A stretch of 64,000 nucleotides of DNA from positions 6,445,037 through 6,509,036 of the forward strand of contig LR746274.1 of the NCBI GenBank assembly GCA_902729315.2, read 5' to 3'. How positions within the stretch are numbered: the stretch's first letter is position 1; each line of letters opens with the position of its first letter. The notes under the pieces were generated by a model. That model was not told the DNA's origin, made no database searches, and saw nothing but the letters and a program-made list of their open reading frames with translations. This DNA comes from Spirodela intermedia (taxonomy: Eukaryota > Streptophyta > Magnoliopsida > Alismatales > Araceae). The translations under genes were made by a program, and so were the position numbers. Positions 2,884-39,700 of the stretch are shown piece after piece.

Positions 2884-2919
<36 letters not shown>

Positions 2920-15653: not shown

Positions 15654-15665
15654 ATCTCTCTACAA

Positions 15666-16559
15666 AAAATTATTCCCCCAATTAGGATTATAAGAATTAG
15701 AAAAAGGCTCCCTATTTTTAATAAAACTATGGGGTACTTGCACTTACTCTTACCTAGGCTGAAATGATTGATCTAAATTATAACTTTGAAATTCAAAATG
15801 ATCATTTTCATCAAATATAGGACATGTATTATATGTATTAAACTGAGGGTTAGGAGGCTTTCTAATATTATCAATAAATAAATCAAGTCTTTTTAATATT
15901 TTATTAATTTGATTAACTTCATTTCTTAAATTAAAATCATTTTGATGATGTGATTTATAAATTACTCTCTTCTTATCCCTACCATATAACTCAAAAGAGA
16001 CTTGATCTCTAGAATTTTCACTTAAATTCTAATAAAGGTTGTAAATTTCATCAAAGGTTTTCTCTATAAAAGCTCCTCCGCATATAGAATAAATCATATT
16101 TCTATGTTGTTCTAATAATCCATTATAAAAAAATCTATTGAACTACCACTTGGGTATATCATGATCAGGACACTTTCTAAGTAAATTTTAAAAATTTTCA
16201 CATGTCTCATGTAAAGTTTCTCCTAGCCTTTGAGAAAAACTCTAAATATATTTTCTCATATTTTGAGTTTTTCTTAAGGGATAAAATTTTCAAAGAAATG
16301 CCTATTCTATGTCTTTCTAACTAGTTAATTCTTTATCTAATGCGGATAGCCAATAACTAGCCTTGTCCCAAAGTGTATAACGAAATAATTTCATCTTAAT
16401 ACTTTTTGGTGTAACTTGAGGGAGATTAAGTAAATACAGATCATATGAAAAAAAATTCAATGTTGAAGAGGTTCCACTAAATGTAATCTATGAAAATTAG
16501 GGCACATTTAGAAATTTTCTGTATTTATTTCGTATTTAACAGTGGGTGCTAATGGGCTC
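15666..16559 (-). pseudogene. gag remnant of element W (central and C-terminal part)
   Basis: Reverse-strand sequence matches the gag of elements X and Y over the capsid-like domain (the LRDKASHWL, IWNFSQRPGETLHET and FYDGLLEQHRNMV regions), but with stops and frameshifts. It ends at 16559 inside the segment that reads VPLAP in the intact copies, exactly where the LTR of element X begins. Confidence 0.8.
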
Positions 16560-18186
16560 TGATAAGTCTTCATTATCATGAGTTAATAATTAGTAAATAA
16601 TATAGTTTTAGCCTTAACTCATGATAAATAAACTTATATTTGTGTTAAAGTGTGAAAAGTGGTTTTCAATTGATTAACGTGAATTTTTGGGTAATTATGT
16701 GATTTTATATGAGTTTTACAGTCTTACTTTTGAGATAAATGAAGAACAAGAAATAAAAATAAAAATATTACAAAATGGGGGGACCCGCCGGCTAGCCGGG
16801 CCCGCAAGCGGGTCGGAAGCGCAGTCGGGGAGTAGCCGCGAGCAGGGGCTCGAGCGGCTTGAACCGATGGGGGCACGTGTGCGCCACTCCCCTTCCACGT
16901 CACCGGTGGCCAGTCGGCTGTGGGCCAAGGAGTGGTCGTACATGCGTGAGAAAGGGACTTTACTTAGAAATATAACATTACTATATATTCGCCCGAAAAT
17001 TCGGCGCACAACCAATGTGGGACTAAACCCGTCACCTTCCTCAGAAGAGGCGGGGGCAACCGGCACGGGTTCGAATCCTCCCAGAGCCAAAACTCATATT
17101 TTTATCTGATTATCGCGACTTTCCTGTAGATCGCCAGTGAAGGATTAAGCAACCAGAATCGTTGGATCATCGGCGAAAATCTCGTCAACATGATTCACGG
17201 AGCATTATTACTCAAATTGCTGAAGGATTCGCGATAAAAGGATCGTGAATCCATCGAGTAAATCATCTCCGATTGATCGACGAACAAGCCGTCATCGGGA
17301 AGAGGACGATCCGTCGGGAGACGAGTCACCACCTCCTGAGAACGTACCAGATGCGATGAAGAGCCTCTTCTTGCTGCGCGGACCTAAGGATGAAGCTCCC
17401 TGACACGCGCCCCACCTCCATCCAGCTCCCTCTCTGTCAGGTGACAGCCGCCAGAGAGCCGCAAAGTTACCGTTTTTCTACTCTGCCGGGTGACAGTCGT
17501 CGGAGACGAGTCAACGACCCATTTTATTGATCTCTAGACTTCGCAAGGAGATCTAGAGATTGCCCACGTCGTCTTTGTCCAAGGAGAGCCTTCGAGGCCG
17601 TGGACACTACACGACGATCCTCCCGAACGATCAGGATTCCGATGCATCGTCGACGCATCGCCATCGCGACGCCAGAATTTTGTTTTCCTGCTTTCAACTT
17701 ACTTTACGCTTCATTTAGTGATAATTTGTGTGATTTTAATTTACCAAAATATACTTCGTTCACTTACGATTCTTCCGGCTTTTACAGATCATAATTTGAT
17801 CAATTAAATCATCTGTAATCACTTACGTAAGAATCGTCGGGCGGAACTCTATTTCCGCCCGATTCGCGTTCGCCGGGCGCTGACGTCATCCTGACGTCCG
17901 CACCCTTATTTCCTTTTTTTGTGAATTTTAAATATATTTCCTTTTTATTTCTTAGTATAAAATTCATATAAAATAGTATTCTTTGAGAAAAATTCTGAAT
18001 AATTACCAGATATTATATTACATCCCTGTGATCAACCTGGAAAATTACCGCTATTTTTGGAAGTTTTATTGAATTATAATTGATATATTTGTTCAGAAAT
18101 ACTTCTAAATATCTGAAAAATCATATTTTCTAGTTTTATAAATTTTAGATTTGCGTGATTTAATATACAACGACTAAGTCATGTCA
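16560..18186 (+). repeat. LTR type A (5' LTR of left element)
   Basis: Starts TGATAAGTC and ends GTCATGTCA; 1,627 bp. Near-identical to the reverse-complemented LTR at 31072-32697 (1,626 bp). It contains a stem-loop at its 5' end, a TATA-like CTATATATTCGCC (about 16980), an adjacent CGAAAATTCG palindrome, a TGTGGGACTAAAC motif and a GGTTCGAATCC box. Its 5' flank is GGCTC (16555-16559). Confidence 0.9.
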
Positions 18187-18191
18187 AATTT

Positions 18192-18208
18192 TGGTGCCGT
18201 TGCCGGGG
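18192..18208 (+). promoter_or_regulatory. Primer-binding site, tRNA-Asp type
   Basis: TGGTGCCGTTGCCGGGG lies five bases after the LTR end and is complementary to the 3' end of plant tRNA-Asp (ending CCCCGGCAACGGCGCCA) with one mismatch. This primer is typical of Athila-type elements. Confidence 0.88.
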
Positions 18209-18391
18209 GATGTATTGCATAATATTTAGTATTCTTCTGTTTTTCTCTTAGAGTACACAAAAAAATTTAACTCTTGTTTTGTTTTCTTTGTGCCAAATTT
18301 TTGTTAAGAAAAAGAGAACGAAAAGAAGCAAGGCAAGGATTGGAGCATATTGAAGGAGCGTAACAATTACTAAACTTTTCCCTCGAATTTA

Positions 18392-19730
18392 TTGTTTTTT
18401 TTTATGCATGGTAGTAGATCCTTGCATCCAAGGCTAGAAAATCCCTTCATTATTTCATTCAAGACTAAAAATCCGAAAGAAAAGTTAATTTTGATGGATC
18501 CTGAAGGAAGTACAGGTCAAACTAACAACAATCCTATGGCCATGAAAAATCATTATATCCTTGATTCATTTCAAAGAGCATCAAATATTAGAGTCCCATT
18601 AGCACCCACTGTTAAATTCGAAATAAATCTAAGAATTTTTCAAATGCTCCCTAATTTTCATGGATTGCCTTTAGAGGAACCTCATCAGTACTCAGAAAAA
18701 TTTCATATGGTCTGTGATTTAGTTAATCTCCCTCAAGTTACACCAGAAATTATTAAGATAAAATTATTTCCTCATACACTTAGGGACAAAGCTAGTCATT
18801 GGCTATCCACATTAGATAGAGAATTAACTAGCTGGAAAGATATAGAACAGGCCTTTCTTTGAAAATTGTATCCCTTAGAAAAAACCCAAAATATGAGAAA
18901 ACATATATGGAATTTTTCTCAAAGACCAGGAGAAACTTTACATGAGACATTGGAAACATTCAAAGATTTACTTAGAAAGTGTCATCATCATGCTATACCC
19001 AAGTGGCAGTTCAATAGAATTTTTTATGATGGATTATTAGAACAACATAGAAATATGGTTGATTCTATATGTGGAGGAGCTTTTATGGAGAAAACCCTTG
19101 ATGAGATTTATAGTCTTTATGAGAATTTAAGTGAAAATTCTAGAGATCAAGCCCTTTTTGAATTATATGACAGGGATAAGAAGAGAGGAATTTATGAATT
19201 GCATCATGATGATGATTCTAAACTTAGAAAGGAGGTTAATCAGATTAATCAAAGATTAGAAAACTTGATTTACTTATTGACAATATTAGAAAGCCTCTTA
19301 ACCCTCAATTTAATTCAAATAGTACATGTCCTATGTATGGTGAAAATGATTATTCTGAATTTCAATGTTATAATTTAGATTAATCATTTCACCCTATGCA
19401 AGAACAAGTGCAAGTAGCTCACGGTTTTAATAGAAATAGGGAACCTTTTTCAAATTCTTATAATCCTAATTTGAGGAATAATTTTTCGTGGAAAAATCTA
19501 AATAATATTCAAAATCTAGAAGCACTTAGATCCAATTCAAATTTTGAATTTTGTCCAAAATAAGAACACAGATTTAAGAAAAATCAGTCCTTTCAAATCC
19601 AACCTGATGCTATGGAAATGATGCAGCAAATGAGCCAAATGATGCAACAAACTATGAATCAAATGATGCTGCACCAGAAACAAATTATAGAGGCTCTTGG
19701 GGATAAGAGAAGAAAGACAGCTACCTAGTC
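18392..19730 (+). pseudogene. gag pseudogene of left element
   Basis: Encodes an Athila-type gag: a FHGLPLEEP..LRDKASHWL capsid-like core (retrotransposon gag domain), FKDLLRKC, FYDGLLEQH, then a YSN..YNPN..NNFSW tail and a Met/Gln-rich stretch (MMQQMSQMMQQ). An in-frame TGA at 18860-18862 replaces the CGA found in the right copy. A frameshift near 19270-19290 and further stops disable the rest. The zinc-knuckle region keeps only part of its Cys/His pattern, because Tyr replaces the second Cys. The start is uncertain; the first Met at 18392 or the one at about 18404 are candidates. Confidence 0.85.
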
Positions 19731-19834
19731 AGCCCATAGAAAATTCAGGAAATTGTCTAATAGTAGGATTTCAGCAAGAAGAGTCTAGCTGGATAAATTT
19801 AGAAAAAAACCCATGAAACGAAAATATTAGGACA

Positions 19835-20896
19835 GTGAATACATTGAGTGAGAATATTTTACCTAATCCTTATTTCCAATTATTAGAAGAATTTGATGAG
19901 CCATTAGAAGTAAATGAGAATATTAAGGCTGAAAATATAGTAGCAGAAAATTTAAATAAAATTATTTATTGCTCACAATTGATGAATCAATATAGTGAGG
20001 ATGATGAGGAGAAAGAGCCCTTAGATGAAGAAACAGCAACTGATCATGGAAAAATCATCCAAATTTTAGTAGAAGGGATTAAGGACAGAAATGAAGAAAA
20101 GCATATTTCAAGTGAGGAAAAATTAGTTGATTTGGGAGATGTAGGAGACGAAATTAATAAATCTAATCATAATTTTGTAGCCATGGATGTTGATAGTGAG
20201 AATGATGATGTATATCATATACCAAAATTAAAAGATAGCTCTTGGGAAGATGAAGAATTTGATGAGTTGAGAAATGAAAAGCTAGAAAAAGAGTTGATTC
20301 AACTAGTGGGGAGAAACGAAAATAATGAATATGAATATAGAGATAATTTTTGAGGAGAAAATTTGAATTTTACTGAATTCATTAGATCTGAGATTAAAGA
20401 AGACAATCCTTCCATCCTTCAAAACCTACAGCCCATTAGAATTACTTCTAAGCTTGAAATATTTCACTCCTCACAAATTGAACAAATATGTATGGAAGAT
20501 AAAATGGAGAAGGGGAAGATTATGCAGATAAAAGAAGACATTAAGAAATGGGTGAGTGGAAAAATTAGAGATATCAATTTAGATGAAAAACAATTAGATT
20601 GGGTAAGAGCTAATTCGAAAATTATATGGCCTGATCACATTTTATGGTCTATTAATAGAAACTATTTATTAATGAATGAAAGCCTTACAAAACAAGATAG
20701 AAATGAGGAAAGATTCTTTTCAAAATGGAAATATTATTTTTGGGAAAATTTTGTTAATTTCTATTTTGTTTTGGCTGAAAGTATGTCAAGGTATATATAT
20801 GAAGTATATGAATTTATGCTAAATCTGAAAAAGAATATCATGAAACTTACCTTGGGATACAAATATATTTTGATGGCCATAGATCATCTTATATGA
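19835..20896 (+). pseudogene. ORFx of left element (acidic, uncharacterised)
   Basis: A 353-residue frame broken only by one TGA at 20351-20353, which is CGA in the right copy. The N-terminal half is very acidic (YSEDDEEKEPLDEE; DVDSENDDVYHIPKLKD). The C-terminal half is basic/aromatic (KKWVSGKIRDINLDEKQLDW; FSKWKYYFWENFVNFYFV). I see no zinc finger, DTG protease motif, DD reverse-transcriptase motif or integrase motif. It stands between gag and the post-pol tail, i.e. in the place of pol. I do not recognise the protein family. Confidence 0.8.
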
Positions 20897-21919
20897 TCTA
20901 AGAGTTGTCCAACTGAAGACATTAAATTCGACACTGCATGGGAGGCAACCCATGGTTTTTATTTCATTTTGTTTGATTTTTTTAAGCTCTGTTTTTCTTA
21001 GAATTTTGCAGTACTTGTTTCTGTAATTGTTTTTTCGAAAAAGTGCAGGAGGAGGAGTGAAAGATGAAGTGGAAAATTAAAAATGAGGTTGAGGTGATGT
21101 CTTTCTGAGCTTTATCATTTATGAAAATATTTTTAATGCTTAACTTTGCACATATGCATGCTTCACTTGAAAATTATATTTTCTGCATATTCTATTTCGA
21201 TTTTTCTGTGTCATTGAGGACAATGTCATTTTTAAGTTGGGGGGTGAAGTATTCATTATTAATTTATGCTGTAGGACGATTAAGAACATGTGTTTGCATT
21301 TTATTCAACTTAGAACAGCAACTAAAAAAATAAAAAAAGATTGCCGAATTCGGAAAAACTGCAACATCTATTTTCTGGTTTTCTGTCAGGAACAACAGAC
21401 TGTCAAAAATAGCAGACGAAAAAACAACCCGAAATTTGAAATTATAGAGACCCTTTTCTCACATTTCAATCCCCTAGACATATATTACTGAAATTCGAAA
21501 TTACAACTATAAAGAAGATAGTTTTGATTTATTTTTTGACAAATTTATTGCTGCTAAAATAGAACTGAAAACAGAAAACAGAACTGTCAGAACTATCTAA
21601 TTTACAAATTTCTTATATCATATTTCATGCATGAAAAATTAAATCAATTAGATTGATTGATACCAAAAGATACTAGGAAGATTATTATTGAGTCAAAAGA
21701 ATGATCTGGTAGCATGAAATGTTGGAATACTCCTTGGATACATGATAGATAACACAGATTTGATTTTACAGATTTTCACTTCATGATCTTGATGGATAAT
21801 ATTTACTTGATATGAAAATTTGATTGATCATTTAAGTTTAATGGAGATTTTTGCACCCTGATCTATAGGACTTGTGAGGAGAAATCACTTATTTCGAAAA
21901 AAAAAAAGGGAGCAATGTG

Positions 21920-22105
21920 AAAAATCTAGAAACGAAGAGTACACATGGAGGGTGTGAGACATCATTCTCATTGTCAAAAATCGTGTATAGAAAAACACTT
22001 GCTGCAAAATAAGTGGATAAAGTGAAAGCCTTGAAAATGAAGAGTACACATGGAGGGTGTGAGACATCATTCTTATTGTCGAAATTTATCTACAGGAAAA
22101 GCTAC
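21920..22105 (+). repeat. 105-bp direct duplication in the 3' untranslated part of the left element
   Basis: GAAGAGTACACATGGAGGGT recurs at 21934 and 22039 together with GTGTGAGACATCATTCT. The same paired arrangement is found in W (about 11340-11500), the right element (about 33125-33275) and Z (about 42425-42600), so it predates the divergence of the four elements. Confidence 0.9.
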
Positions 22106-22490
22106 TTATCTACTATATATAAAGAAAGAAGAAATATAGTGCAAACTTCAAAAATCAAGCCATAGAAAAAGGGAAATGTAGGATCAATATTATTCTTTGA
22201 TGAGTATTGATAATTGGAACATCTTGTAAATACATCTATGAGTGAAGAAGTGATAAAGATGTGAATAGAAGAAGTGAAGTCTAGATTGTTATTCCAAGGA
22301 GTGTTTAAACATTTAAGTGCTTGACATCATTCTTAAATACTTGATATAAGAATCCAAAGTGTCTAAAGGTGCATCATTTCTAATTGTATTTTTTTTCTTT
22401 CTGTATTGAAATATGATGTTTGAGATTTGTAAATTTTTATTTTCGTAATTCCATTGCTAAGGGACTACCAATGATTTAAGTTGGAGGGTG

Positions 22491-23785
22491 TGATAAGTCT
22501 TCATTATCATGAGTTAATAATTAGTAAATAATATAGTTTTAGCCTTAACTCGTGATAAATAGACTTATATTTGTGTTAAAGTGTGAAAAGTGGTTTTCAG
22601 TTGATTAATGTGATTTTTTGGGTAATTATGTGATTTTATACGAATTTATATGATTTTTACAGTCTTACTTTTGATATAAATGAAGAAAAAAAAAATAAAA
22701 AAAATATTGCAAAATGTGGGGGGACCCGCCGGCCAGTCGGGCCCGCAAGCGGGTCGGAAGCGCAGTCGGGAGTAGCCGTGAGCAGGGGCTCGAGCGGCTT
22801 AGCTTGGACCGATAGGGGCACGTGTACGCCACTCCCCTTCCACGTCACCGGTGGCCAGCTAGCTGTGAGGCAAGGAGTGGTCGTACACGCGAGAGAAGGG
22901 ACTTTGCCTGAAAAGCTAACATTACTATATATTCGCCTGAAAAATCGGCGCACAACCGATGTGGGACTAAACCTGCGTCACACCTTCCTCAGAAGGGGGG
23001 GCGGACAACCGGCGCGGGTTCGAATCCTCCCAGAGTCAAAATTCATATATTTTTATCTAATTATCGCGACTTTCCTGCAGATCGCCAGTGAAGGATTAAG
23101 CAACCAGAATCGCTGGATCATCGGCAAAAATCTCGTCAACGCGATTCGCGGAGCATTGCTACTAAATATGCTGAACGATTCACGATAAAAGGATCGCGAA
23201 TCCATCGAGTGAATCATCTCCGATTGATTGACGAACAAGCCGTTGTCGGGAAGAGGACGATCCGCCGGGAGACGAGTCGCCACCTCCTGAGAGCGTACCA
23301 GATGCGATGAAGAGCCTCCTCTTGCTGCGCGGACCTGAGGATGAAGCTCCCTGACACGCGCCCCACCTCCATCCAGCTCCTCTCCGTCGGGTGACAGCCG
23401 CCGGAGAGCCGCAAAGTCACCGTTTTTCTGCTCCGCCGGGTGACAGCCGCCGGAGACGATTCGACGACCCACTTCATTGATCTCTAGACTTCACGAGAAG
23501 ATCTAGAGATTGCCCACGTCGTCTTTTTCCAAGGAGAGCCTTCGAGGCCGTGGACACTTCACGACGATCCTCCTGAATGCTCAGGATTCTGGTGCATCGC
23601 CGACGCATTGCCGTCGCGACGCCGGAACTCTGTTTTCCTGCTTTCAATTTACTTTACACTTCATTTAGTGATAATTTTTGTGTTTTTAATTTACCAAGTA
23701 TACTTTGTTCTATTACGATTCTTCTGGCTTTTACAGATCTTAATTTGATCAATTAAATCATCTGTAATCGCTTACGTAAGAATCG
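22491..23785 (+). repeat. LTR type B (3' LTR of left element, truncated)
   Basis: Begins TGATAAGTC right after the purine tract TTGGAGGGTG (22481-22490). It matches the reverse complement of 37923-36860, including the diagnostic CTTAGCTTGGACCGATAGGG segment. It stops at AAGAATCG, about 340 bp short of a full LTR end, and is followed by AGGGTG and another LTR start. Confidence 0.85.
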
Positions 23786-23791
23786 AGGGTG

Positions 23792-25360
23792 TGATAAGTC
23801 TTCATTATCATGAGTTAATAATTAGTAAATAATATAGTTTTAGCCTTAACTCATGATAAATAGACTATATTTATGTTAAAGTGTGAAAAGTTATTTTCCG
23901 TTGATTTTATACAAATTTATATAATTTGTATAGTCTTACTTTTGAGATAAATGAAGAAAAACAAATAAAAATTAAAATAAGACAAAATGGGGGGGACTTG
24001 CCGGCCAGTCGGGCCCACAAGGGGTCAGAAGCGCAGTCGGGGAGTAGCTACGAGCAGGGGCTTGAGCAGCTTGGACTGATAGGGACATGTGTGTGCCACC
24101 CCCCTCCACGTCACCGGTGGCCAGCCGGTTGTGGGGCAAGGAGTAGTTGTACATGCGCGAGATAGGGACTTGATCAAAAATGTAATATTACTATATATTC
24201 ATCATAAATTTTGGCGCACAACCGATGTGGGACTAAACCCGCGTCACCTTCCCCAAAAAGGGCGGGCAAGCGACGTAGGTTCGAATCCTCCTAGAGCCAA
24301 AATTTATATTTTTTATCTGATTATCGCGACTTTCCTGCAAATCGCCAATGAAGTATTAAGCAACCAGAATCGCTGGATCATCGGCAAAAATCTCATCAAC
24401 GTGATTCGTGGAGCATTATTACTAAAATTGTTGAACGATTCGCAATAAAAGGATCGCGAATCCATTGAGTAAAGCATCTTCAATTGATCGACGAACAAGC
24501 CATCGTCGGAAAGAGGACGATCTACCGGGAGACGAGTTGCCACCTCCTGAGAGCGTACCGGATGCGATGAAGAGCCTCCTCTTGCTGCACGGACCTGAGG
24601 ATGAAGCTCCCTAACACGCGCCCCACCTCCATCCAGCTCCTCTCTGTCGGGTGACAGCCATCGGAGAGCCGCAGAGTCACCATTTTTCCACTCCACCGGG
24701 TGACAGCCGCCGGAGATGATTCGACGACTCATTTCATTAATCTCTAGACTTCACAAGGAGATCTAGAGATTGCCCACATCGTCTTTGTTCAAGGAGAGCC
24801 TTCGAGGCCGTGGACACTACACGACGATCCTCCCGAACGCTCAATATTTCGGTGCATCATTGACGCATCGCCGCCCTGATGCCGGAACTCTGTTTTTCTA
24901 CTTTCAACTTAATTTTCGTTTCATTTAGTTATATTTTTTTGATTTTAAATTTACCAAGATATACTTTATTTCATTAAGATTCTTTTAGATTTTACAGATC
25001 TTAATTTGATCAATTAAATCGTCTGTAATTGCTTACATAAGAATCACCGGGTGCTGACATCATCATGATGTTCGCACCCTTATTTCCCTTTTTCGTGAAT
25101 TTTAAATATATTTCCTTTTTATTTCTTAGTATAAAATTTATAGAAAATATTATTCTTTGAGAAAAATTCTGAATAATTACCAGATATTATATTACATCCT
25201 TGTTATCGACCTGGGAAATTATTGCTATTTTTGAAAGTTTTATTGAATTATAATTGATATATTTGTTCGGGAATACTTCTAAATATCTGAAAATTCATAT
25301 TTTCTAGTTATATAAATTTTAAATTTGCGTGATTTACTATACAACGACTAAGTTACATTA
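23792..25360 (+). repeat. LTR type C (outer LTR of Y)
   Basis: A full-length but more diverged LTR, starting TGATAAGTC after AGGGTG (23786-23791) and ending AGTTACATTA. It is followed by GTATT (25361-25365), the inverse complement of the AATAC found just outside the LTR at 37923. Together they form the target-site duplication of element Y, split by the later inversion. Confidence 0.8.
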
Positions 25361-25365
25361 GTATT

Positions 25366-25600
25366 CATCTTTGATGTATGGAAAAATGGTCTCCCTAAGA
25401 CGATTAATGCATCATAAAACTGTCCATTAAAATCTATTTTTAGCACTACAAAATCAGTTGATAATTTACACTTTAATTGTCACTATTATATTTTCTAAAA
25501 TATCTTTAAGATTTTTTACAGATCTATTAGTAAATTTTAAGGTAACAATAGAAGGTTTAAGATCATACTTGTAGGTAATAAATTAATATTAGCACCGGTG
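25366..25600 (-). pseudogene. Protease fragment of element Z
   Basis: Read on the minus strand, it gives a TGANINLLP-like segment (the aspartic-protease active-site region, with His in place of the usual Asp before Thr-Gly-Ala), then DLKPSIVTLKFTNRSV, and an ALIVLGRPFF-like end, the classic LGRPF close of plant Ty3/gypsy protease. Stops and frameshifts are present. It breaks at 25366 at the GTATT target duplication; the following sequence is found at 37924 onwards on the plus strand. Confidence 0.75.
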
Positions 25601-25839
25601 TGAAGTAATATATTTGAAAAATAAATCCACCATTATCACACAAAATTAAAAGAGCACAAATCTCTCTCAATTTATATGACAACTAATTAAATAATAAAAC
25701 ACTATCCTGCAAAGATAATTTTTCTATTATAGGTGCCTTTTTTGGTGTACACATTTCTTTCAAAACTATAGCATATTTAGAAATATGTTTGATAGTTATG
25801 ACTAAAGAAAGACTAATTTGCACTTACTTTTGCTGAAAC

Positions 25840-26725
25840 TGAAATGATTGATCTAATATGGGGCATTGAAATTTGAAATAATCATTTTCACCACATATAA
25901 GATAGTTACTATTTGAATTAAATTGAGGGTTAGGAGGCTTCTAATATTATTAATAATTAAATTAAGTTTTTTTAATATTTGATTAATGTAATTTACCTCA
26001 TTTCTTGAGTTAGAATCATCTTGATGATGTAATTCATAAATTAGTTTCTTCTTATCACTATGATATAATTCAAAAGAGGCTTGATCTCTAGAATTTTCAC
26101 TTAAATTCTCATAAAGACTATAAATCTCATTAGAGATTTTTTCTATAAAAGCTCATTCACATATAGAATAAACCATATTTGTATGTTGTTCTAACAATCT
26201 ATCATAAAAGATTCTATTGAGCTGTCACTTAGGTATAACATAATGAAAATCTTTGAATTTTTTTTATGCCTTATATAAAGTTTCTCTTGACCTTTGAGCA
26301 AAACTCTATATATATATTCTCATGTTTTGAGTTTCTTTCTAAGGATTAATTTTTTTGAAGAAAGGTGTATTGTATATCTTTTTAACTAGTTAATTCTCTA
26401 TCTAATGGGGATACCTAATAACTAAGCTTGTCCCTAAGTGTATGAGGAAATAATTTTATCTTAACAATTTTTGATATAACTTGAAAGAGATTAACTAAAT
26501 CAGAGATCGTATGATTTTTTTTTAAATGCTAATGAGGTTCCTCTAAAGGTAATTCATGAATATTAGGGAGCATTTGAAAATTTTTAGATTTATTTTGAAT
26601 TTAATTGTGATTTCTAATGGGACTCTAATATTAGATGGTCGGTGATATGAATCAAGGATAGAATGATGGATGAAATAGTGGAAGGATTTTTTAGTCTTGG
26701 ATGTAAAGATCTTCTACCATGCATA
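25840..26725 (-). pseudogene. gag pseudogene of element Z
   Basis: The minus-strand sequence aligns throughout with the gag of the left and right elements (start near CATGCATAAAAATTTATAAA at 26720, capsid-like core, and the tail that precedes protease), but it is full of stops and indels. It sits between the Z 5' LTR and the Z protease in the expected order. Confidence 0.75.
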
Positions 26726-26934
26726 AAAATTTATAAATTTGAAGACAAAGTTTAATAAATATTACCCTCCTTACGTATGATCTAGTCTTTGCCTTGCTAT
26801 TCTTAGTTCTTTTCTTTTTTTTATCTACAAGAAGAAAATAGAAATAAGAATTAAATTATTTTTGTGTACTATAAGAGAAAAATTAAAAAATACAAAATAT
26901 TATGTAATACATCCTTGACAATATTGCCAAAATT

Positions 26935-28780
26935 TGATGTGACCTAATCATGGTATAATAAATTATATAATTTTAAAAATTATAAAATTAGAAAAATACT
27001 ATTTTTTATTTTTAAAAAAATATGTCATCACAAATAAATCAATTATAATTCTCTAAAATGTTTCAAAAATAGTAAGAAATTTCTAGATCAATTATAGGGA
27101 TGTAAGATAATATATGGCAAGATTTAAGAATATTTTTTTATATAATTTATAGACTAAACGATGAAGATAATAATATATTTAAAAATTTACGAAAAAAATT
27201 GGGTGTGGATGTCAAGGTGACGTCAATGCCTTGGTGAACACAATATGTAATGAATGAGGAGTCCGTTTCGGAATCGTCTGCCCTGCACTGACCCCCTGAG
27301 TATATAATTCAACAAGAATCACACAAGGGTAGATTCATAGAAACCTATGGTAAAATGCCCCCCTATAAACCAGCAAATAAAGTACATTATATAGTCTATT
27401 TTAAGCAAAAATAGAGTTCTACTTGATGATTCTTATATAAACAGTTACGGTGATTTAATCGATCAAATTAAAATTTGTAAAAGCTAGAAGAATTTTAATT
27501 GAATGAAGAAGATTTTTAAAACTTAAAATCACACAAAATATCATTAAATTAAGCAAAAAATAAGTTTAAAGTAAGAAAGATAAAGTTTCGACTTTGCGGT
27601 GGCGATCACTAGAATTTTGTATGTTGAGAGAATTATTGTTCAATGTCCATGACCTCAAGAGCTTTTTTTAAATATGTACGATGTAGATAATCTCTATATC
27701 TTTTTGAGAAGTCTAAAAATTAATAAAATAGGTTGATGAATTGTCTTTAGTAGTTGTCACCTAATAGAGCAGAAATACAAGGAATTTTTAATCTTCAATG
27801 ACTATCACCTGATGGAGATAAGTTAGATGGAGGTGGGGCATGTCTTCAGATTCGCGTGGCAAAATAAGGCTTTTCATTGCATTTAATATGCTCTCAAGAG
27901 GTGGCGACTTGTTTTCCAGTAAATTATCTTCTTCTTGATGATGACTCGTTTGTCAATCAATCAAAGATGATTTACTCAATGAATTTGTGATCTTTTTATC
28001 TAAAATCATTCGACAATTAGTAATTATGGTCTGCAAATTACGTTAATGATATTTTATTGATGATTGAGTGATTTTGGTAGCTTAATCGTTGACTAGTGCT
28101 CTACAAAAAAATCATTATTTAATCAGATAAAAACATATATTTTGGCTTTAGTGAGATTTGAACACTCATCAGTTGTTTGCCTATATGAAAGAGAGTTAAA
28201 TAAGTATGGAATACTCTTGTTAAGTGTCATTATAAGGGTGTCTCTTTCTTATCATTTAGGGGTATTTTAGGTATAGAAATATTGAAAACAAATGACAACG
28301 AGTGGTGACCTAGATTTTATGTAACATAGGCTATTTTCTAAGTTTTAAGATAAATATATAGTAATACCTCTTCCTATCTTTAATGTAGTCCTCTCACGTG
28401 CGTAAGGGGAGTGATGCACATGTGCCCCCAACTGGTCCTTAGTAGCCTGAGCCCCTTGCTCATGGCTCCTCTCAACTGTACTTTTGGTTTGCTTGTGGGT
28501 TCGGCTGGCCAATAGGTCCCCCAACTGTGCTTTCGATCCACTTGTGGGCTAGCTGTTTGATGGGGTCCCTTCTTTTTATATATATTTTATTTTATTTCTC
28601 TTTATTTTATCTCAAAAATATAATTATAAAAATTATATAAAATCACATAATTAGTCAAAAAATTACATTAAGTAACTAAATTTTTATCAACTTAATATAA
28701 ATATACGTCTATTTATCATGAGTTAAAGCTTAAAATATATTATTAATTAATTATTAACTCATGATAATGAAGACTTATCA
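26935..28780 (-). repeat. 5' LTR of element Z (inverted), with an internal insertion
   Basis: Reverse-complemented LTR from TGATGTGACC (26935) to AGACTTATCA (28780), strongly diverged. Next to it (26915-26931) is a decayed primer-binding site. In Z orientation its upstream flank ends ACTCCCTT, and CTCCCTT recurs just after the Z 3' LTR (46308-46314). It carries a foreign segment at about 27243-27407. Confidence 0.78.
27243..27407. other. Non-LTR insertion inside the Z 5' LTR
   Basis: Compared with the equivalent part of the other LTRs (e.g. about 14207-14225 and 31385-31400), this copy has about 165 extra bases. They include a GC-richer stretch with GTCTGCCCTGCACTGACCCC and ACACAAGGGTAGATTCATAG. 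It is unlike the surrounding AT-rich LTR and its origin is unknown. Confidence 0.6.
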
Positions 28781-29259
28781 AAGGGAGTATAATGGATTGG
28801 GCAATTCTAAAACTTGATGTGGGCCTAGTTTTATGGCTTTGGGCCTTGACGCCCATAAGAATAATAAGAATAACTTAATAACTATCATAGTTTGTCACCT
28901 CAATCCCACCTTTTATTCTAGCCCAATACGCCCTAAAATATTTGTGCTTACCTTCACATTTAAGGCTTGAGCATTTCAGAGAAATATCGGGCCCATCTAG
29001 GATCTAGCTACTAAGGACATGAGGTGAAGGATTCTTGTCACTTTTACAATTTTGAGACCTCAAATCTGCCAAATTTATTGACATGTGGTATCCATCTATC
29101 TCCCCTCTCACTCTCTCTCTAACACTGTGAGGGATTCCATTTAGAGCCCCATTTATGAGATTGGTTATATGTATTGACCATTCATGTTTTGCTGCAGCTG
29201 TCATTAGCCACCAGCTATCACCTTTGAGGCAGTGGTGAGTTTCCATACCTGTTGTGCAC
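28781..29259. other. Host DNA island between two retroelement LTRs
   Basis: No retroelement similarity. It is bounded by the outer ends of the Z 5' LTR (28780) and the W 5' LTR (29260), so it appears to be a remnant of pre-insertion host sequence. It contains GGGCCTAG/GGGCCC motifs and a short open frame on the minus strand (29279-29004) without recognisable domains. Confidence 0.65.
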
Positions 29260-31071
29260 TGATAAGTCTTCATTATCATGAGTTAATAATTAATAAATAA
29301 TGCAGTTCTAGCCTTAACTCATGATAAATAGACTTATATTTATGTTAAATTATGAAAAGTGATTTTCAGTTGATTAATGTGATTTTTTGGCTTATTATGT
29401 GATTTTATGTGATTTGATATAATTTTTATAATCCTATTTTTAAGATAAATAAAGAAAAAAATGAAAATAAAAAAAAGAAAAAGGGGGCGACCCCTCGGCC
29501 AGCTAGTCCCACAAGTAGGTTGGAAAGTAGTCGGAGCCACGAGTAGGGGCTCAAGCGGCTATAGACTGATGGGGGCACGTGTGTGTCACTCCCCTTCCAC
29601 GTCACTAGTTGCTAGCTAGGCGTCGGGCAAGAGTGGTCATACACAAGTGAAAAAGGGACTCATTGATTCCTAAATCTCGCATTACTATATATGCGTCTCA
29701 ACATTCGGCGTATAACCAATGTGGGACTAGATCGACGGTCATACTTTCCTTAGAATATTTTGATAATTTTAATATCAAAAACCCCTTATTTATAACAATG
29801 AAATACTATAATGATGTCACTATATAAGGGTATTCGACTACTTATTCACTCTCTCTCATGTAGGCAGACGACTGGTGTGGGTTCAAATATTACAAGAGCT
29901 AAATTCATATTTTTATTTGATTAAAATCGTGATTTTCCTACAGATCATTGGTGAAGGATTATGTCGCCAGAATCACTCGATTATCGATGAAAATCACGTC
30001 AACGCAATTCACGGAGCATTATTACTAAAATTATGGATATCCACTATTTTTTTCTAGACTTTGAAAGGAGATCCAACGAATGCCCAAGTCATCCATGTGT
30101 AAAGAGAGCTTTTGAGGCCATGAATATCGTTCAATGATCATTCCAAACAGACAAAATTCTGACGATTGCTGTCGTGAGGCTGGAACTCTACCTTTTCTAC
30201 TTTCAACTTAATTTTCACTTTATTTAGTGATAATTTGTGTGAATTAAAATTTTCAACCTACTCTTCATTCAATTACGATTCTTCTAGGTTTCACAGGTCT
30301 TAATTTGATCAATTAAATCATCTATAATCACTTATGTAAGAGTCATCGTGCAGAACTCTATTTTCGCCTGATTCGTATTCATCAAGTGCTGATGTCATTT
30401 TGATGTCTGCACCATTATTTTCTTTTTTCACAAATTTTAAATATATTTCACTTTCATTTCTTAATCTTAAATTCATAAAAAATCAAATTTTTTGGGACAA
30501 ATTCTGAAATATTACTTGATATTATATTATATCTTTCTAATTGATCTTGAAAATTTTCACTAGTTTTAGAACTTTTATTGAATTATAGTTATAAATATCC
30601 CAAAATTAGTATTTTCTATTTTTATAAATTTTAAATTTACATGATTTATTATCCAATGACTAAGTCACATCAAATTTTGATGCCATTGCCAGAGATGTAT
30701 TACATAATATTTGGTATTTTTTGTTTTTCTTTTAGAGTACATAATTTTTTTTAGCTCTTATCTTTATTTTTGTAGTAGAAAAAAATAGAAAAAAAGACAG
30801 AACAAAGATCAGCAAGGACTGGAGAAGACTGAAGGAGGGTAATAGTTATTAAAAATTTTCTTCAAATTTATTGATTTTTATGCATAGTAGAAAATACTTA
30901 CACCCAAGGTTAGAAAATTCTTACACTATCTTGTCTAAAACAAAAAATTCGAAAGAAAAATCAATTTTGATGGATCTTGAAGGTAATATAGGTCAAACTG
31001 AGAATAATCACATGGGAATAAAAAATTATTATATCCCTGATTCATATCAATGAGCATCCAATATTAGAGTC
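29260..31071 (+). mobile_element. Element W, 5' portion (5' LTR, primer site, gag start), now inverted
   Basis: LTR 29260-30672 (TGATAAGTC..GTCACATCA), then a decayed primer-binding site (about 30678-30695), a leader, and the beginning of gag. It ends at 31071 in ATATTAGAGTC, just before an LTR. The missing continuation of this gag (CCATTAGCAC..) is at 16559 reading leftwards. The flanks GAGTC here and GGCTC at 16555-16559 are the two copies of the target duplication made when element X inserted. Confidence 0.82.
30860..31071 (+). pseudogene. gag N-terminal fragment of element W
   Basis: Encodes the family's gag start (MHSRKYLHPRLENS, then a segment ending YYIPDSYQ) with a stop before the ASNIRV segment. 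It is interrupted at 31071 by the LTR of the right element. Confidence 0.78.
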
Positions 31072-32697
31072 TGGCGTGACTTAGTCGTTGTATATTAAAT
31101 CACGCAAATCTAAAATTTATAAAACTAGAAAATATAAATTTTCGGATATTTAGAAGTATTTTTGAACAAATATATCAATTATAATTCAATAAATCTTCCA
31201 AAAATAGTGGTAATTTTCAATATTGATCACAAGGATGTAATATAATATCTGGTAATTATTCAGAATTTTCCTCAAAGAATACTATTTTATATAAATTTTA
31301 TACTAAGAAATAAAAAGGAAATATATTTAAAATTCACAAAAAAAGGAAATAAGGGTGCGGACGTCAAGATGACGTCATCACCCGGCGAACGCGAATTGCG
31401 GGGAAACAGAGTTCCGCCCGACGATTATTACGTAAGCGATTACAGACGATTTAATTGATCAAATTAAGATCTGTAAAAGCCGGAAGAATCGTAAGTGAAC
31501 GAAGTATATTTTGGTAAATTAAAATCACACAAATTATCACTAAATGAAGCGTAAAGTAAGTTGAAAGCAGGAAAACAAAATTCTGGCATCGCGATGGCGA
31601 TGCGTCGGCGATGCACCGGAATCCTGAGCGTTCGGGAGGATCGTCGTGCAGTGTCCACGGCCTCGAAGGCTCTCCTTAGACAAAGACGACGTGGGCAATC
31701 TCTAGATCTCCTTGCAAAGTCTAGAGATCAATGAAATGGGTCGTTGACTCGTCTCTGACGGCTATCACCCGGCAGAGCAGAAAAACGGCAACTTTGCGGC
31801 TCTCTGGCGGCTGTCACCTGACAGAGAGGAGCTGGATGGAGGTGGGACGCGTGTCAGGGAGCTTCATCCTTAGGTCCGCACAGCACGAGGAGGCTCTTCA
31901 TCGCATCTGGTACGCTCTTAGGAGGTGGCGACTCGTCTCCCGGCGGATCGTCTTCTTCCCGACGACGGCTTGTTCATCGATCAATCGGAGATGATTTACT
32001 CGATGGATTCACGATCCTTTTATCGCGAATCCTTCAGTAATTTGAGTAACAATGCTCCGTGAATCGTGTTGACGAGATTTTTGCCGATGATCCAACGATT
32101 CTGGTTGCTTAATCCTTCACTGGCGATCTATAGGAAAGTCGCGATAATCAGATAAAAATATGAGTTTTGGCTCTAGGAGGATTCGAACCCGTGCCGGTTG
32201 CCCCCGCCTCTTCTGAGGAAGGTGACGGGTTTAGTCCCACATTGGTTGTGCGCCGAATTTTCGGGCGAATATATAGTAATGTTATATTTCTAAGTAAAGT
32301 CCCTTTCTCACGCATGTACGACCACTCCTTGGCCCACAGCTGGCTGGCCACCGGTGACGTGGAAGGGGAGTGGCGCACACGTGCCCCCATCGGTTCAAGC
32401 CGCTCGAGCCCCTGCTCGCGGCTACTCCCCGACTGCGCTTTTGACCCACTTGCGGGCCCGGCTGGCCGGCGGGTCCCCCTATTTTGTAATATTTTTATTT
32501 TTATTTCTTGTTCTTCATTTATCTCAAAAGTAAGACTGTAAAAATCATAGAAAATCACATAATTACCCAAAAATTCACGTTAATCAATTGAAAACCACTT
32601 TTCACACTTTAACACAAATATAAGTTTATTTATCATGAGTTAAGGCTAAAACTATATTATTTACTAATTATTAACTCATGATAATGAAGATTTATCA
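31072..32697 (-). repeat. LTR type A (3' LTR of right element)
   Basis: 1,626 bp, near-identical to 16560-18186 in reverse complement, including the absence of the CTTAGCTTGG segment. It begins TGGCGTGAC and ends GATTTATCA. Antisense open frames in it (e.g. 32148-32570) mirror those in the left copy and are compositional. Confidence 0.9.
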
Positions 32698-34439
32698 CAC
32701 CCTCCAACTTAAATCATTGCTAGTCCCTTAGCAATGGAATTTACGAAAATAAAAATTTACAAATCTCAAACATCATATTTCAATACATAAAAAAAAATAC
32801 AATTAGAAATGATGCACCTTTAGACACTTTGGACTCTTATATCAAGTATTTAAGAATAATGTCAAGCACTTAAATGTTTAAGCACTCCTTGGAATAACAA
32901 TCTAGACTTCACTTCTTCTATTCACATCTTTATAACTTCTTCACTTATAGATATATTTACAAGATGTTCCAATTATCAATAATCATCCAAGAATAATATT
33001 GATCCTACATTTCCCTTTTTCCATGGCTTGATTTTTGAAGTGTGCACTATATTTCTTTATTCTCTCTTTTTTTTTAATATATATATATATATAGTGGATA
33101 AGTAACTTTTCCTGTAGACAAATTTCGACAATAAGAATGATGTCTCACACCCTCCATGTGTACTCTTCATTTTCAAGGCTTTCACTTTATCCACTTATTT
33201 TGCAGCAAGTGTTCTTCTATACACGATCTTCGACAATGAGAATGATGTCTCACACCCTCCATGTGTACTCTTTATTTCTAGATTTTTCACATTGCTCTCT
33301 TTTTTTTTTCGAAATAAGTGATTTCTCCTCACAAGTCCTATAGATCAAGGTGCAAAAATCTCCATTAAACTCAAATGATCAATCAAATTTTCACATCAAG
33401 TAAATACTATCCATCAAGGTCATGAAGTGAGAATCTGTAAAATCAAATCCATGTTATCTATCATGTATCCAAGGAGTATGCCAACATTTCACGCTATTAG
33501 ATCATTCTTTTGACTCAATAATAATCTTCCTAGTGTCTTTTGGTATCAATCAATCTAATTGATTTAATTTTTCATGCATGCAATATGATGTAAGAAATTT
33601 GTAAATTAGATAGTTCTGACAATTCTGTTTTCTGTTTTCAGTTCTATTTTTAGCAACAATAAATTTGTCAAAAATAAATCAAAACTATCCTCTTTATAGC
33701 TGTAATTTCGAATTTCAGTAATATATGTCTAGGGGATTGAAATGTGAGAAAAGGGTCTCTAGAATTTCAAATTTCGGGCTATTTTTTGTCTGTTATTTTT
33801 GACAGTCTGTTGTTCCTGACAGAAAACCAGAAAATAGATGTTGCAGTTTTTTTCAGTTGTTGTTCTAAGCTAAACACATGTTCTTAATCATCCTATAGCA
33901 TAAATTAATAATGAATACTTCACCCCCCAACTTAAAAATGACATTGTCCTCAATGACACAGAAAAATCGAAATAGAATATGCAGAAAATATAATTTTCAA
34001 GTGAAGCATGCATATATGCAAAGTTTAGCATTAAAAATGTTGTCATAAATGATAAAGCTCCGAAAGACATCACCTCAACCTCGATTTTAATTTTCCACTT
34101 CATCTTACACTCCTCCTCCTGCACTTTTTCAAAAAAACAAATACAGAAACAAGTACTGCAAAATTCTAAGAAAAACAGAGTTTAAAAAAAAAAATCAAAC
34201 AGAATGAAATAAAAACCATGGGTTGCCTCCCATGCAGCGCTGAATTTAATGTCTTCAGCTGGACAGCTCTTAGATCATATAAGATGATCTATGGCCATCA
34301 AAATATATTTGTATCCCAAGGTAAGTTTCATGATATTCTTTTTCAAATTTAGCATAAATTCATGTACTTCATATATATACCTTGACATACTTTCAGCCAA
34401 AACAAGATGGAAATTAACAAAATTTTCCCAAAAATAATA

Positions 34440-35321
34440 TTTCTATTTTGAAAAGAATCTTTCCTCATTTCTATCTTATTTTGTAAGGCTCTCATTCATT
34501 AATAAATACTTTCTATTAATAGACCATAAAATGTGATCAGGCCATATAATTTTCAAATTAGCTCTTACCCAATCTAAATTCTTTTCATCTAAATTGATAT
34601 CTCTAATTCTTCCACTCACCCATTTCTTAATGTCTTCTTTTATCTGCATAATCTTCCCCTGCTCTATTTTATCTTCCATACATATTTGTTCAATTTGTGA
34701 GAAGTGAAATATTTTAAGCTTAGAAATAATTCTAATGGGCTGTGGGTTTTGAAGGATGGAAGGATTGTCTTCTTTAATCTCAGATCTAATGAATTCAGTA
34801 AAATTCAAATTTTCTCCTCGAAAATTATCTCTATATTCATATCCATTATTTTCGTTTCTCCCCATTAGTTGAATCAACTCTTTTTCTAGTTTTTCATTTC
34901 TCAACTCATCAAATTCTTCATCTTCCCAAAAGCTATCTTTTAATTTCGGTATATGATATACATCATCCTCCTCACTATCAACATCCATGGCTGCAAAATT
35001 ATGATTAGATTTATTAATTTCGTCTCCTACATCAACTGATTTTTCCTCACCTGAAATATGTTTTTCTTCATTTCTATCCATACTCCCTTCTACTAAAATT
35101 TGGATGATTTTTCCATGATCAGCTGTTGTTTCTTCATCTAAGGGCTCTTTCTCCTCATCATCCTCACTATATTCATTCATCATTTGTGAGCAATAAATGA
35201 TTTTATTCAAATTTTCTGCTACTATATTTTCGGCCTTAATATTATCATTTACTTCTAATGGATCATCAATTTCTTCTTCTAATAATTGGAAATAAGGATT
35301 AGGTAAAATATTCTCACTCAA
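34440..35321 (-). pseudogene. ORFx of right element
   Basis: The most intact copy: 281 codons open from the Met at 35321 to a TAA at about 34476, which is CAA in the left copy. Beyond the stop the sequence stays homologous to about 34250. The acidic N-terminal block and the KWVSGRIRDINLDEKNLDWV core match the left copy. The two copies are broken at different codons, so their common ancestor had the whole frame open. Confidence 0.82.
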
Positions 35322-36657
35322 TTTTCATTTCGTAGGTTTTTTTCTAAATTTATCCAGCTAGACTCTCTTTGCTGAAATCCTACTGTTGGATAGTTTCCTG
35401 AATTTTCTATGGGCGGACTAGGTGGCTGTCCCTCTTCTCTCTTATTCCCAAGAGCCTCTATAATTTGTTTCTGGTGCAGCATCATTTGATTCATAGTTTG
35501 TTGCATCATTTGGCTCATAGTTTGTTGCATCATTTGGCTCATTTGCTGCATCATTTCCATAGTATCATGTTGGGTTTGAGATGGCTGATTTTTCTGAAAT
35601 CTGTTTTCTTATTTTGGACGAAATTCAGAGTTTGAATTGGATCTAAGTGCTTCTGGATTTTGAATATTATTTGGGTTTCTCCACGAAAAATTATTCCCCA
35701 AATTAGGATTATAAGAATTAGAAAAATATTCCCTATTTTTACTAAAATCGTGGGGTACCTGCACTTGTTCTTGCCTAGGATGATATTGAAATTCGAAATG
35801 ATCATTTTCACCATACATAGGATCTGTACTATTTGAATTAAATTGAGGGTTAAGAGTCTTTCTAATATTGTCAATAAGAAAATCAAGTTTTTTTAATCTT
35901 TAATTAATCTGATTAACCTCATTTCTAAATTTAGATTCATTATCATGATGCAATTCATGAATTCCATAAAAGCTCCTCCACATATAGAATCAACCATATT
36001 TCTATGTTGTTCTAATAATCCATCATAAAAAATTATATTGAGCTGCCACTTGGGTATAGCATGCTGAGGACATTTTCTAAGTAAATCTTTGAATGTTTCC
36101 CATGTCTCATGTAAAGTTTCTCCTGGTCTTTGAGAAAAATTCCATATATGTTTTCTCATATTTTGAATTTTTCCTAAGGGATAAAATTTTCGAAGAAATG
36201 CCTGTTCTATGTCTTTCCAGCTAGTTAATTCTCTATCTAATGTGGATAGCCAATGGCTAGCTTTGTCCCTAAGTGTATGAGGGAATAATTTCATCTTAAT
36301 AATTTCCGGTGTAACTTGAGGGAGATTAACTAAATCACAGACCATATGAAATTTTTCTAAGTGCTGATGAGGTTCCTCTAAAGGCAATCCATGAAAATTA
36401 GGGAGCATTTGAAAAATTCTTGGATTTATTTCGAATTTAACATTGGGTGCTAATGGGACTCTAATATTAGATGCTCTTTGAAATGAATCAGGGATATAAT
36501 AATTTTTCATGGCCATAAGATTTTTCTCAGTTTGACCTGTACTTTCTTCAAGATCTATCAAAATTAATTTTTCTTTCAGATTTTTAGTTTTGAATGAAAT
36601 AATGAAAGGATTTTCTAGCCTTGGATGCAAGGATCTTCTACCATGCATAAAAATCAA
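35318..36657 (-). pseudogene. gag pseudogene of right element
   Basis: Open from 36657 to about 35893 over the capsid-like core (LRDKASHWLSTLDRELTSW; RKFYPLGKIQNMRKHIW). A deletion of about 115 bp relative to the left copy, after the GGAFME segment (around 35955-35965), shifts the frame. The tail then resumes in other frames with NSYNPNLGNNFSW and a duplicated Met/Gln-rich MMQQ repeat (35560-35318). The first Met at 36657 or 36648 is the likely start. Confidence 0.83.
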
Positions 36658-36837
36658 TAAATTCGAGGGAAAAATTTAGTAATTGTTACCCTCCTTCAGG
36701 ATGCTCCAGTCCTTGCCTTGCTTCTTTTCGTTCCCTAAAAAAAAAAATCAGCAAAAAGAAAATAAAACAAGAGTTAAATTTTTTTTTTGTGTACTCTAAG
36801 AGAAAAACAGAAAAATACTAAATATTATGCAATACAT

Positions 36838-36854
36838 CCCCAGCAACGGCGCCA
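36838..36854 (-). promoter_or_regulatory. Primer-binding site, tRNA-Asp type
   Basis: On the minus strand TGGCGCCGTTGCTGGGG, one mismatch from perfect complementarity to the tRNA-Asp 3' end, five bases inside the 5' LTR. Confidence 0.88.
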
Positions 36855-36859
36855 AAATT

Positions 36860-37923
36860 TGACGTGACTCAGTCGTTGTATATTAAATCACGCAAATATA
36901 AAGTTTATAAAACTAGAAAATACGAATTTTCGGATATTTAGAAGTATTTCTAAATAAATATATCAATTATAATTCAATAAAAGTTCCAAAAATAGTGGTA
37001 ATTTTCCAGGTCGATCACAAGGATGTAATATAATATCTGGTAATTATTCAGAATTTTTCTCAATGAATACGATTTTCTATGAATTTTATACTAGGAAATA
37101 AAAAGGAAATATATTTAGAATCTCAGGAGGTGGCGACTCGTCTCCCGGCGGATCGTCCTCTTCCCGACGACGGCTTGTTCGTCGATCAATCGGAGATGAT
37201 TTACTCGATGGATTCGCGATCCTTTTATCGCGAATCGTTCAGCAATTTTAGTAGCAATGCTCCGCAAATCGCGTTGACGAGATTTTCGCCGATGATCCAG
37301 CGATTCTAGTTGCTTAATCCTTCACCGGCGATCTGCAGGAAAGTCGCGATAATCAGATAAAAATATATGAATTTTGACTCTAGCAGGATTCGAACCCGCG
37401 CCGGTTGTCCGCCCCCCCTTTTGAGGAAGGTGTGACGCAGGTTTAGTCCCACATCGGTTGTGCGCTGATTTTTCAGGCGAATATATAGTAATGTTAGCTT
37501 TTCAGGCAAAGTCCCTTCTCTCGCGTGTACGACCACTCCTTGCCCCACAGCCGGCTGGCCACCGGTGACGTGGAAGGGGAGTGGCGCACACGTGCCCCTA
37601 TCGGTCCAAGCTAAGCCGCTCGAGCCCCTGCTTGCAGCTACTCCCGACTGCGCTTCCGACCCGCTTGCGGGCCCGGCTGGCCGGCGGGTCCCCCCATATT
37701 TTGCAATATTTTAGTTTTATTTCTTTTTCTTCATTTATCTCAAAAGTAAGACTGTAAAAATCATCTAAATTTGTATAAAATCACATAATTACCCAAAAAT
37801 TCACATTAATCAACTAAAAATAACTTTTCACACTTTAATACAAATATAAGTCTATTTATCATGAGTTAAGGCTAAAACTGTATTATTTATTATTTATTAA
37901 CTCATGATAATGAAGACTTATCA
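36860..37923 (-). repeat. LTR type B (5' LTR of right element, internal deletion)
   Basis: Reverse-complemented LTR from TGACGTGAC (36860) to ACTTATCA (37923). An internal deletion of roughly 600 bp joins AATATATTTAGAA to TCTCAGGAGGTGG at about 37119. It is followed by AATAC (37924-37928), the target duplication partner of GTATT at 25361. Confidence 0.85.
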
Positions 37924-38415
37924 AATACTAATTTTCTCACAGGTATTACAAAAATTTCATATGGGGAACAATCAGTAGAAATTACAAATTTTGAAGAATT
38001 AAATGATCTTAAGAAATGACAAATATATAATTTCCATACTATAGATCTTTTTGATGATTTAGATGTTATTAATGAATGTGCGCTGGAAAAATTAGAAGAA
38101 ATAAAGAATATAAATTTGTGAGAAAAGAAAGAAGGAAGATCATTCAAATTTAGAATTGAAATCTCTTCCCTCTTATTTAAAATATATTTTTTTGGAGGAA
38201 AATAATTTATTTCTTGTTGTTGTTCTAGCTGATTTGAGTGATAAATAGGAAGAAGAATTATTTTATTTACTTCAAAAAAATAAGAAGGTTATTAATTGAA
38301 AAATTAATGATTTGAAAGGCATTGATATGAGTGTATGCATGCATAATATATATTTAGAAGAAGGGGCTAGTACTAGTACGGAACCACAATGAAGGTTAAA
38401 TCCTAATGTTAAAAC
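37924..38415 (+). pseudogene. Element Z pol: protease-RT linker and start of reverse transcriptase
   Basis: Continues the protease fragment found at 25366 on the other strand. It encodes TGITKISYGEQSVEITNFEE, then the linker PLPSHLKYIFL-like, KGIDMSVCMHNIYLEEGAS and RLNPNV, which in Athila-type pol immediately precede the reverse-transcriptase core. Several stops are present. It breaks at about 38415 where a dispersed repeat has inserted. Confidence 0.78.
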
Positions 38416-38885
38416 TAGCTTTTTCTGTTTTAATTAGTTTTATTATTTTATTTTGTGAAATCAATGAGATTAAAGGCTAATTAATGAGCGTTGAACTGTT
38501 AAAACAAGGTGAAGACATTCACAGTTGACCTCATGTCATGTATGTGAATTCTCAAGCACACATTCATTCAAGAATAATGGTCACCGTGAAAACGGGTTGA
38601 CCGTATTTCTCTCATTCTTTAATATCGTCAAGATTCTCTCCATCTCTCTTCTCTCTCCTTTCCTCTTTCCTTTCTCTTCTTCCCTTCTGTTATTCTTCTC
38701 ACCAAAACCTTTTCTTTTATTATTTCTATTAAATAGTGATAAAATATTAAACTTACTTTATATGTAAACTAAATTAGTTTTTATGATAGATTAATCAATG
38801 TTCTTATGTTTGACCTAAGACTTACTTCCATACTAATATTTTATTAAGTCTTAGTTATAAATATTATTAGATAATGGGCCTTTAT
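38416..38885. repeat. Dispersed repeat, copy 2, inserted in Z pol
   Basis: The reverse complement of this segment matches 8773-9360 in block order and wording (CTAATAATATTTATAACTAA; ATGACATGAGGTCAA). It replaces the N-terminal half of the reverse-transcriptase core of Z. I could not define clean terminal repeats or a target duplication. Confidence 0.75.
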
Positions 38886-38888
38886 ATT

Positions 38889-39700
38889 AAGAAAAAGTGA
38901 CTTTCATTTGTCCATTTGGTAATTTTACTTTTAAATGCATGCCTTTTAGGTTGTGTAATGCTCCAACCACATTTCAAAGATGTATGCTATCTATTTTTTC
39001 TAATATGACTAGAAAATATATGAAAAATTTTATAGACTATTTTTCTATTTTTGGTGAATCATTTGATGAATGCTTAGATCATTTATAATATGTACTTGAG
39101 AACTGTATAAAGAAAAAAATAATTTTAAGTTAAGGAAATCACATTTCATGATTAGATAAGGAGTTGTGTTGGGACATATTGTGAGTGAAAGGGGTTTATA
39201 GGTGAATAAAGTAAAATATAATATTCTATATAATATGCAACCTCCAAATTCACAAAAACAGATTCTATCTTTCTTGAGTCATGCAGGTTATTATAAAAAA
39301 TTTATTCAAAAAACTTTAAAAATTAATAAACCTCTTACCATGTTATTATCTAAAGATGTGCCTTTTAATTTTGATAATAAATATTTTGAGTCTTGTTTTG
39401 AAATTAAAAGATACTACTAAAGCATCAATTTTACAAGCTTCTGATTTGTCTCTTCTATTTGAAATAATGTGTAATGCTTTGAATTATGCAGTGGGAGTTA
39501 TGCTACGACAGAGAAAGAGTCAAAACCCATAATAATTTCATATGCTAGCAAAATTATATCTAATACTCAGTTAAATTATACCACAATTCAAAAAGACTTG
39601 CTAGCAATAGTATTTTCTTTAGAGAAGTTTAAATTATATATTTTATGAGCTAAAATTATTATTTATATTGATCATGCAGCATTAAAATATTAATGAAATA
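38889..39700 (+). pseudogene. Element Z pol: reverse transcriptase C-terminal part and RNase H
   Basis: Encodes TFICPFGNFTFKCMPFRLCN, APTTFQRCM and the active-site segment FIDYFSIFGESF, where the second catalytic Asp of the usual xxDD is Tyr. It continues through the connection region and RNase H (SLPFEIMC.ALNYAVGVMLRQ; ISYASK..TIQKDLLAIVFSLEKF), with multiple stops and frameshifts. Confidence 0.82.

Follow-up and report, generated by a model that had tools for sequence, protein, structure and literature searches.

A probable inversion by crossover between two oppositely oriented LTR retrotransposons in a nested cluster of Spirodela intermedia

Introduction

Why two long terminal repeat (LTR) retrotransposons of one family, facing each other on opposite strands, should both carry flanking sequences that do not match is the question raised by a 64-kb stretch of the Spirodela intermedia genome (hereafter the window; C11:6445037-6509036, without any N, in an assembly of 136.5 Mb and 32 contigs). 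The left element lies on the plus strand at 16560-25360 and is flanked by GGCTC and GTATT, and the right element, on the minus strand at 31072-37923, is flanked (read on its own strand, at the ends formed by its LTRs A' and B) by GACTC and GTATT. An original prediction, made from this sequence, had proposed that the segment between two opposed elements was inverted by a crossover between them. Our analysis supports this proposal, and we put the probability that one homologous crossover between two oppositely oriented elements, here called X and Y, produced the inversion at roughly 0.92. Three mutually independent lines of evidence lead to this conclusion, namely the sister relationship of LTRs A and A', the re-joining of two older interrupted elements (W and Z) in the arrangement found in relatives, and a switch in private differences that is unmatched among controls.

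Between 11 and 46 kb, the window consists of nested copies of a single LTR-retrotransposon family, whose LTRs start with TGATAAG and whose internal region, some 4.3 kb long, has a match to the Pfam gag model PF03732 (at 18866-19375 in the left internal region and at 35896-36657 in the right one). In the element frames, of which pieces of 75 aa or more were scanned, no polymerase domain came to light that would bear on membership of the Ty3-type (gypsy) superfamily, as judged by the order of reverse transcriptase and integrase. The marks of LTR retrotransposons are present, as the copies have long direct terminal repeats, a region after the 5' LTR that we take to be the primer-site region, a polypurine tract before the 3' LTR, and a 5-bp target duplication; in the intact relatives L044 and L050, the flanks match (ATCAT and ATGAT, respectively).

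Results

The coordinates and orientations first proposed for the LTRs and for both elements were confirmed. The left element begins with LTR A (16560-18186, plus strand), which would represent one end of X, and the right element ends with LTR A' (31072-32697, minus strand), its 3' LTR, which would represent the other. In a tree of 23 LTRs, A and A' are sisters with support of 100/99; they are 96.0% identical, at a Kimura two-parameter (K2P) distance of 0.041, and have 12 private sites in common against 13 reference LTRs. A is, in fact, nearer to A' than to B' (22491-23785; 91.7%), the LTR of its own element; the reverse, which would have refuted the original prediction, is not seen. When the genome was searched with LTR A and with a further LTR of the locus, LTR C, 40 of 3674 candidates were scored, and among these the next match to A after A' stands at 92%.

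The second line of evidence comes from W and Z, each of which is split in two with its halves on opposite strands. The 3' part of W is found at 11220-16559 (minus strand), where a solo LTR with flanks GTCTC/ATCTC has entered it at 13894-15653, and the 5' LTR and the start of the gag of W are at 29260-31071 (plus strand, apparently reversed by the inversion). The 5' half of Z, with LTR and gag, occupies 25361-28780 (minus strand, likewise apparently reversed), and the 3' half with the 3' LTR occupies 37924-46306 (plus strand); the latter LTR contains a solo LTR (43278-44988) with an exact CATAG on both sides. Turning the middle segment back restores the continuity of the flanking sequence, and the same continuity is observed in relatives, where the halves are joined and overlap at the target duplication at all seven loci examined for W and at 28 of 29 loci examined for Z. 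The duplication left by Y in Z, which the flip had been predicted to restore, is exact: GTATT at 25361-25365 (plus strand) is the reverse complement of AATAC at 37924-37928 (plus strand), so that GTATT beside the LTR start at 37923 agrees in 5/5 bases. The CTCCCTT flanks, by which the two LTRs of Z had been paired, match as well (7/7), but they lie 1 base past the expected LTR end.

The third line concerns the internal regions of the two chimeric elements, which were aligned with those of ten relatives. We called a site private when one element had a base absent from the relatives and the other element agreed with at least 80% of them, and 113 such sites were found. The left element carries the deviant base at 66 of 81 sites up to left-internal position 2874, and at just 10 of 32 from position 3085. 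None of 5000 shuffles gave as good a switch, whose score was 12.77 as compared to 7.35 for the best control among 45 pairs of relatives given the same treatment. Plotting element-specific differences, as had been advised for locating the crossover, thus did reveal a switch. Judged by it, the left internal region (18187-22490, plus strand) would be derived from X to about 21151 and from Y from about 21271, and the right internal region (32698-36859, minus strand) would be derived from Y between 36859 and about 34016 and from X between about 33896 and 32698. The two stretches ascribed to X carry private differences at rates of 2.50% and 2.13%, and the two ascribed to Y at 0.64% and 1.16%.

Within the best switch interval falls a stretch of 119 bp at 21152-21270 (plus strand) that is identical to 33897-34015 (minus strand), is the longest identity between the two internal regions, and is the likeliest place of the crossover. 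The coincidence is suggestive but no proof, because an identical stretch carries no informative site. With the crossover in this interval, the inverted segment would most likely measure about 12.6-12.9 kb. The support range of the switch is wide (left-internal 1572-3085), and its far limit (19758 and 35388) would allow an inversion of at most about 15.6 kb; these values fall inside the bounds of 10.2 and 18.7 kb predicted at the outset. We infer that one crossover brought this about, and neither a series of exchanges nor a conversion tract.

Discussion

The opposite orientation of the elements, their chimeric ends, the private-site switch, the exchanged duplications and the split of W and Z are shown by the sequence. 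Several observations, however, weigh against an inversion by crossover. To begin with, the duplication attributed to the insertion of X in W is imperfect. Its left copy is GGCTC (16555-16559, plus strand), and its partner, now beyond the inverted segment, is GAGTC (31067-31071, plus strand), which reads GACTC on the reverse strand; beside family sequence the duplication is GAGTC, and the left copy, as GAG-C, is one base short. The claim that the flip restores a GACTC duplication therefore holds for the re-joining of W and not for the exactness of the repeat.

Next, the sequences of B and B' do not demonstrate that the two form a pair. LTR B (36860-37923, minus strand), the 5' LTR of the right element with an internal deletion at 37121, would be the Y half of that element, and B' (plus strand, truncated at its 3' end) the Y-side LTR of the left one. 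They are 95.0% identical, but B has a nearer relative than B' in 11 of 22 other LTRs, and B' has one nearer than B in 6 of 22; in 781 sites compared against the 13 reference LTRs the two have no private site in common. Both belong to a large young subfamily, within which the tree does not resolve their placement. The motif CTTAGCTTGG, proposed as specific to B, does indeed have just two occurrences in the window, at 22798 and (reversed) at 37606, but it is found in 8 of 18 reference LTRs; it marks the subfamily, and we dropped it as a marker of the pair. We likewise gave up B and B' as a proven pair from one insertion, as B' is no nearer to B than other copies of the subfamily, and of the reciprocal pairing originally put forward only the A/A' side is established. 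The lack of specific pairing between B and B' would suit a locus where no inversion took place, and where independent insertions in opposite orientations came to have matching ends by coincidence or conversion. Such an explanation seems extremely improbable to us, as it gives no cause for the cutting of W and Z at points that are exactly complementary, with their halves on opposite strands, does not account for the private sites of A and A', and is at odds with the relatives, in which W and Z run on without a break across the turned-back ends.

The remaining points against an inversion by crossover concern the switch. Two of the 45 control pairs meet a loose criterion of sign reversal, at lower strength, and the family is for this reason to be regarded as somewhat mosaic. 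When the three closest relatives set the rule, the switch falls at left-internal 1706-1714, past which the sites are evenly divided (44/92) rather than reversed; with six relatives, it falls at left-internal 2747-2800 and 2 of 5000 shuffles are as good. Markers that distinguish two groups of relatives tell the two elements apart before position 1750, are equal in 1750-2900, and show no reciprocal switch after left-internal 2900; being uninformative after 1750, they were abandoned as a locator of the crossover. A partly mosaic family could lend some credit to two unrelated breaks repaired by end-joining, with the appearance of a crossover due to gene conversion or chance, and end-joining did act nearby, at a junction between B' and LTR C that has a 1-base overlap. 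We nevertheless consider this scarcely credible, given that both breakpoints lie at matching positions inside elements of one family, that ends and duplications are reciprocally exchanged, and that the chimeric elements were left full-length.

Finally, the inversion is read from one assembly and one version of the chromosome, and it could be asked whether the true chromosome still has W with X inside it and Z with Y inside it, the two inverted copies having been cross-joined by the assembler alone. Five centromeric retrotransposons of a maize reference, as reported in the sections of PMC4806543 drawn on here, had mismatched duplications that were corrected by resequencing, and a misjoin would also be expected to fall in the longest identical internal stretch, where our best interval lies. 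The internal regions, however, differ by 5.5% (94.5% identity), and the longest identical opposite-strand stretch between the elements, found between A and A', is 165 bp. Furthermore, the contigs are megabases long, the window has no N, the spacer between Z and W (28781-29259) has one match in the genome search, hence no second version in the assembly, and the misjoin would have to be two-sided and consistent. An artefact is thus quite improbable, and the event probably occurred in the organism.

Inversion by a crossover between X and Y also leads to an order of events. W, on the minus strand, and Z, on the plus strand before the event, would be the oldest copies, about 0.5 kb apart; solo LTRs would have entered W and the 3' LTR of Z, and X would have entered the gag region of W, and Y, in the opposite orientation, the internal region of Z. 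Later than both insertions, X and Y would have undergone a single homologous crossover in their internal regions, likeliest in or near the 119-bp stretch; the 12.6-12.9 kb between them would thereby have been inverted, and two chimeric elements would remain, their ends and target duplications exchanged. As these elements are still long inverted repeats, the segment might flip back and forth, with both orientations occurring in the species, which we hold to be unlikely.

Y itself was, or became, composite, with LTR C as its probable outer 3' LTR. The outer end of Y (23786-25360, plus strand) comprises a polypurine-tract remnant (to 23791) and the diverged LTR C (23792-25360), and it is C, not B', that adjoins the GTATT copy. 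C is at most 85% identical to any other scored match of the genome search. With up to 3 mismatches allowed, the junction between B' and C is found at a single place in the genome, and this, together with its one overlapping base, points to a local deletion. Because B and C, the outer LTRs of Y, differ by a K2P distance of 0.13 despite an exact common duplication, Y was remodelled. Of the 20 differences that set B apart from its own subfamily, 7 lie in its first 108 bases, and 2 of these are common to C; this would fit a younger element joined to what remained of an old 5' LTR, but is only suggestive. Y was a composite and not the plain element with two B-type LTRs first envisaged; B and B' are of one subfamily, and the third LTR had gone unnoticed.

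This kind of event is already known, and the locus adds one further case with an unusually clear record. According to the portions of PMC2775673 used here, the 2z3 inversion of Drosophila buzzatii was attributed to Galileo on the grounds of opposite orientation, exchanged duplications and the chimeric nature of both copies, with the crossover placed within 141 bp. All three marks are found here too, together with a crossover that most likely falls in a short interval. Galileo, in contrast, is described there as a DNA transposon, and 2z3 as a large polymorphic chromosomal inversion compared with uninverted chromosomes (PMC2775673), whereas the elements studied here are LTR retrotransposons and the inversion involves about 13 kb of nested elements in one chromosome version. 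In maize CEN10, as far as the cited sections go (PMC4806543), recombination among nested LTR retrotransposons likewise gave chimeric elements with mismatched duplications, although inversions were inferred there from synteny and here from the reciprocal exchange of ends of one element pair. Within the S. intermedia genome, the full-length element L045 (C10:4846161-4853711) has non-sister LTRs (94.5% identical) and unmatched flanks (GGAGAT/CTAACC), and like both chimeric elements of the window it is an inter-element recombinant. Matching flanks were seen in the two further full-length relatives that were checked.

We therefore regard this locus as a sequence-level case of a small inversion via recombination between nested LTR retrotransposons, in which the mechanism is ordinary and the record clean, as both element ends, both duplications, both interrupted host elements and the approximate crossover can be read from one chromosome. 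Old nested clusters hide such rearrangements, and the elements then resemble simple insertions with mismatched ends; a search for host elements split onto opposite strands could serve as a recipe for finding further cases.

Additional observations

The right internal region lacks 100 bp near 35963. The gap is not present in any of the ten relatives, and we accordingly take it for a deletion that befell the right element. A crossover at this gap (right-internal position of about 897) was considered, since identity to relatives drops there, and was rejected, as private sites keep their sign well past it.

Elsewhere in the window, long open frames at 55452-57632 (plus strand, 726 aa) and 60424-62505 (minus strand, 693 aa) had no Pfam match at an E value of 0.001. 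The plant snoRNA family snoR71 of Rfam (RF00097) matches antisense gag at 36056-36162 (plus strand) and 18890-18996 (minus strand). What we take to be the box D motif is not evident at the end of the best match, and it may be that the resemblance is due to chance or that the family model was touched by retrotransposon sequence; the same antisense match was also found in 10 of the 10 internal regions of relatives that were scanned.
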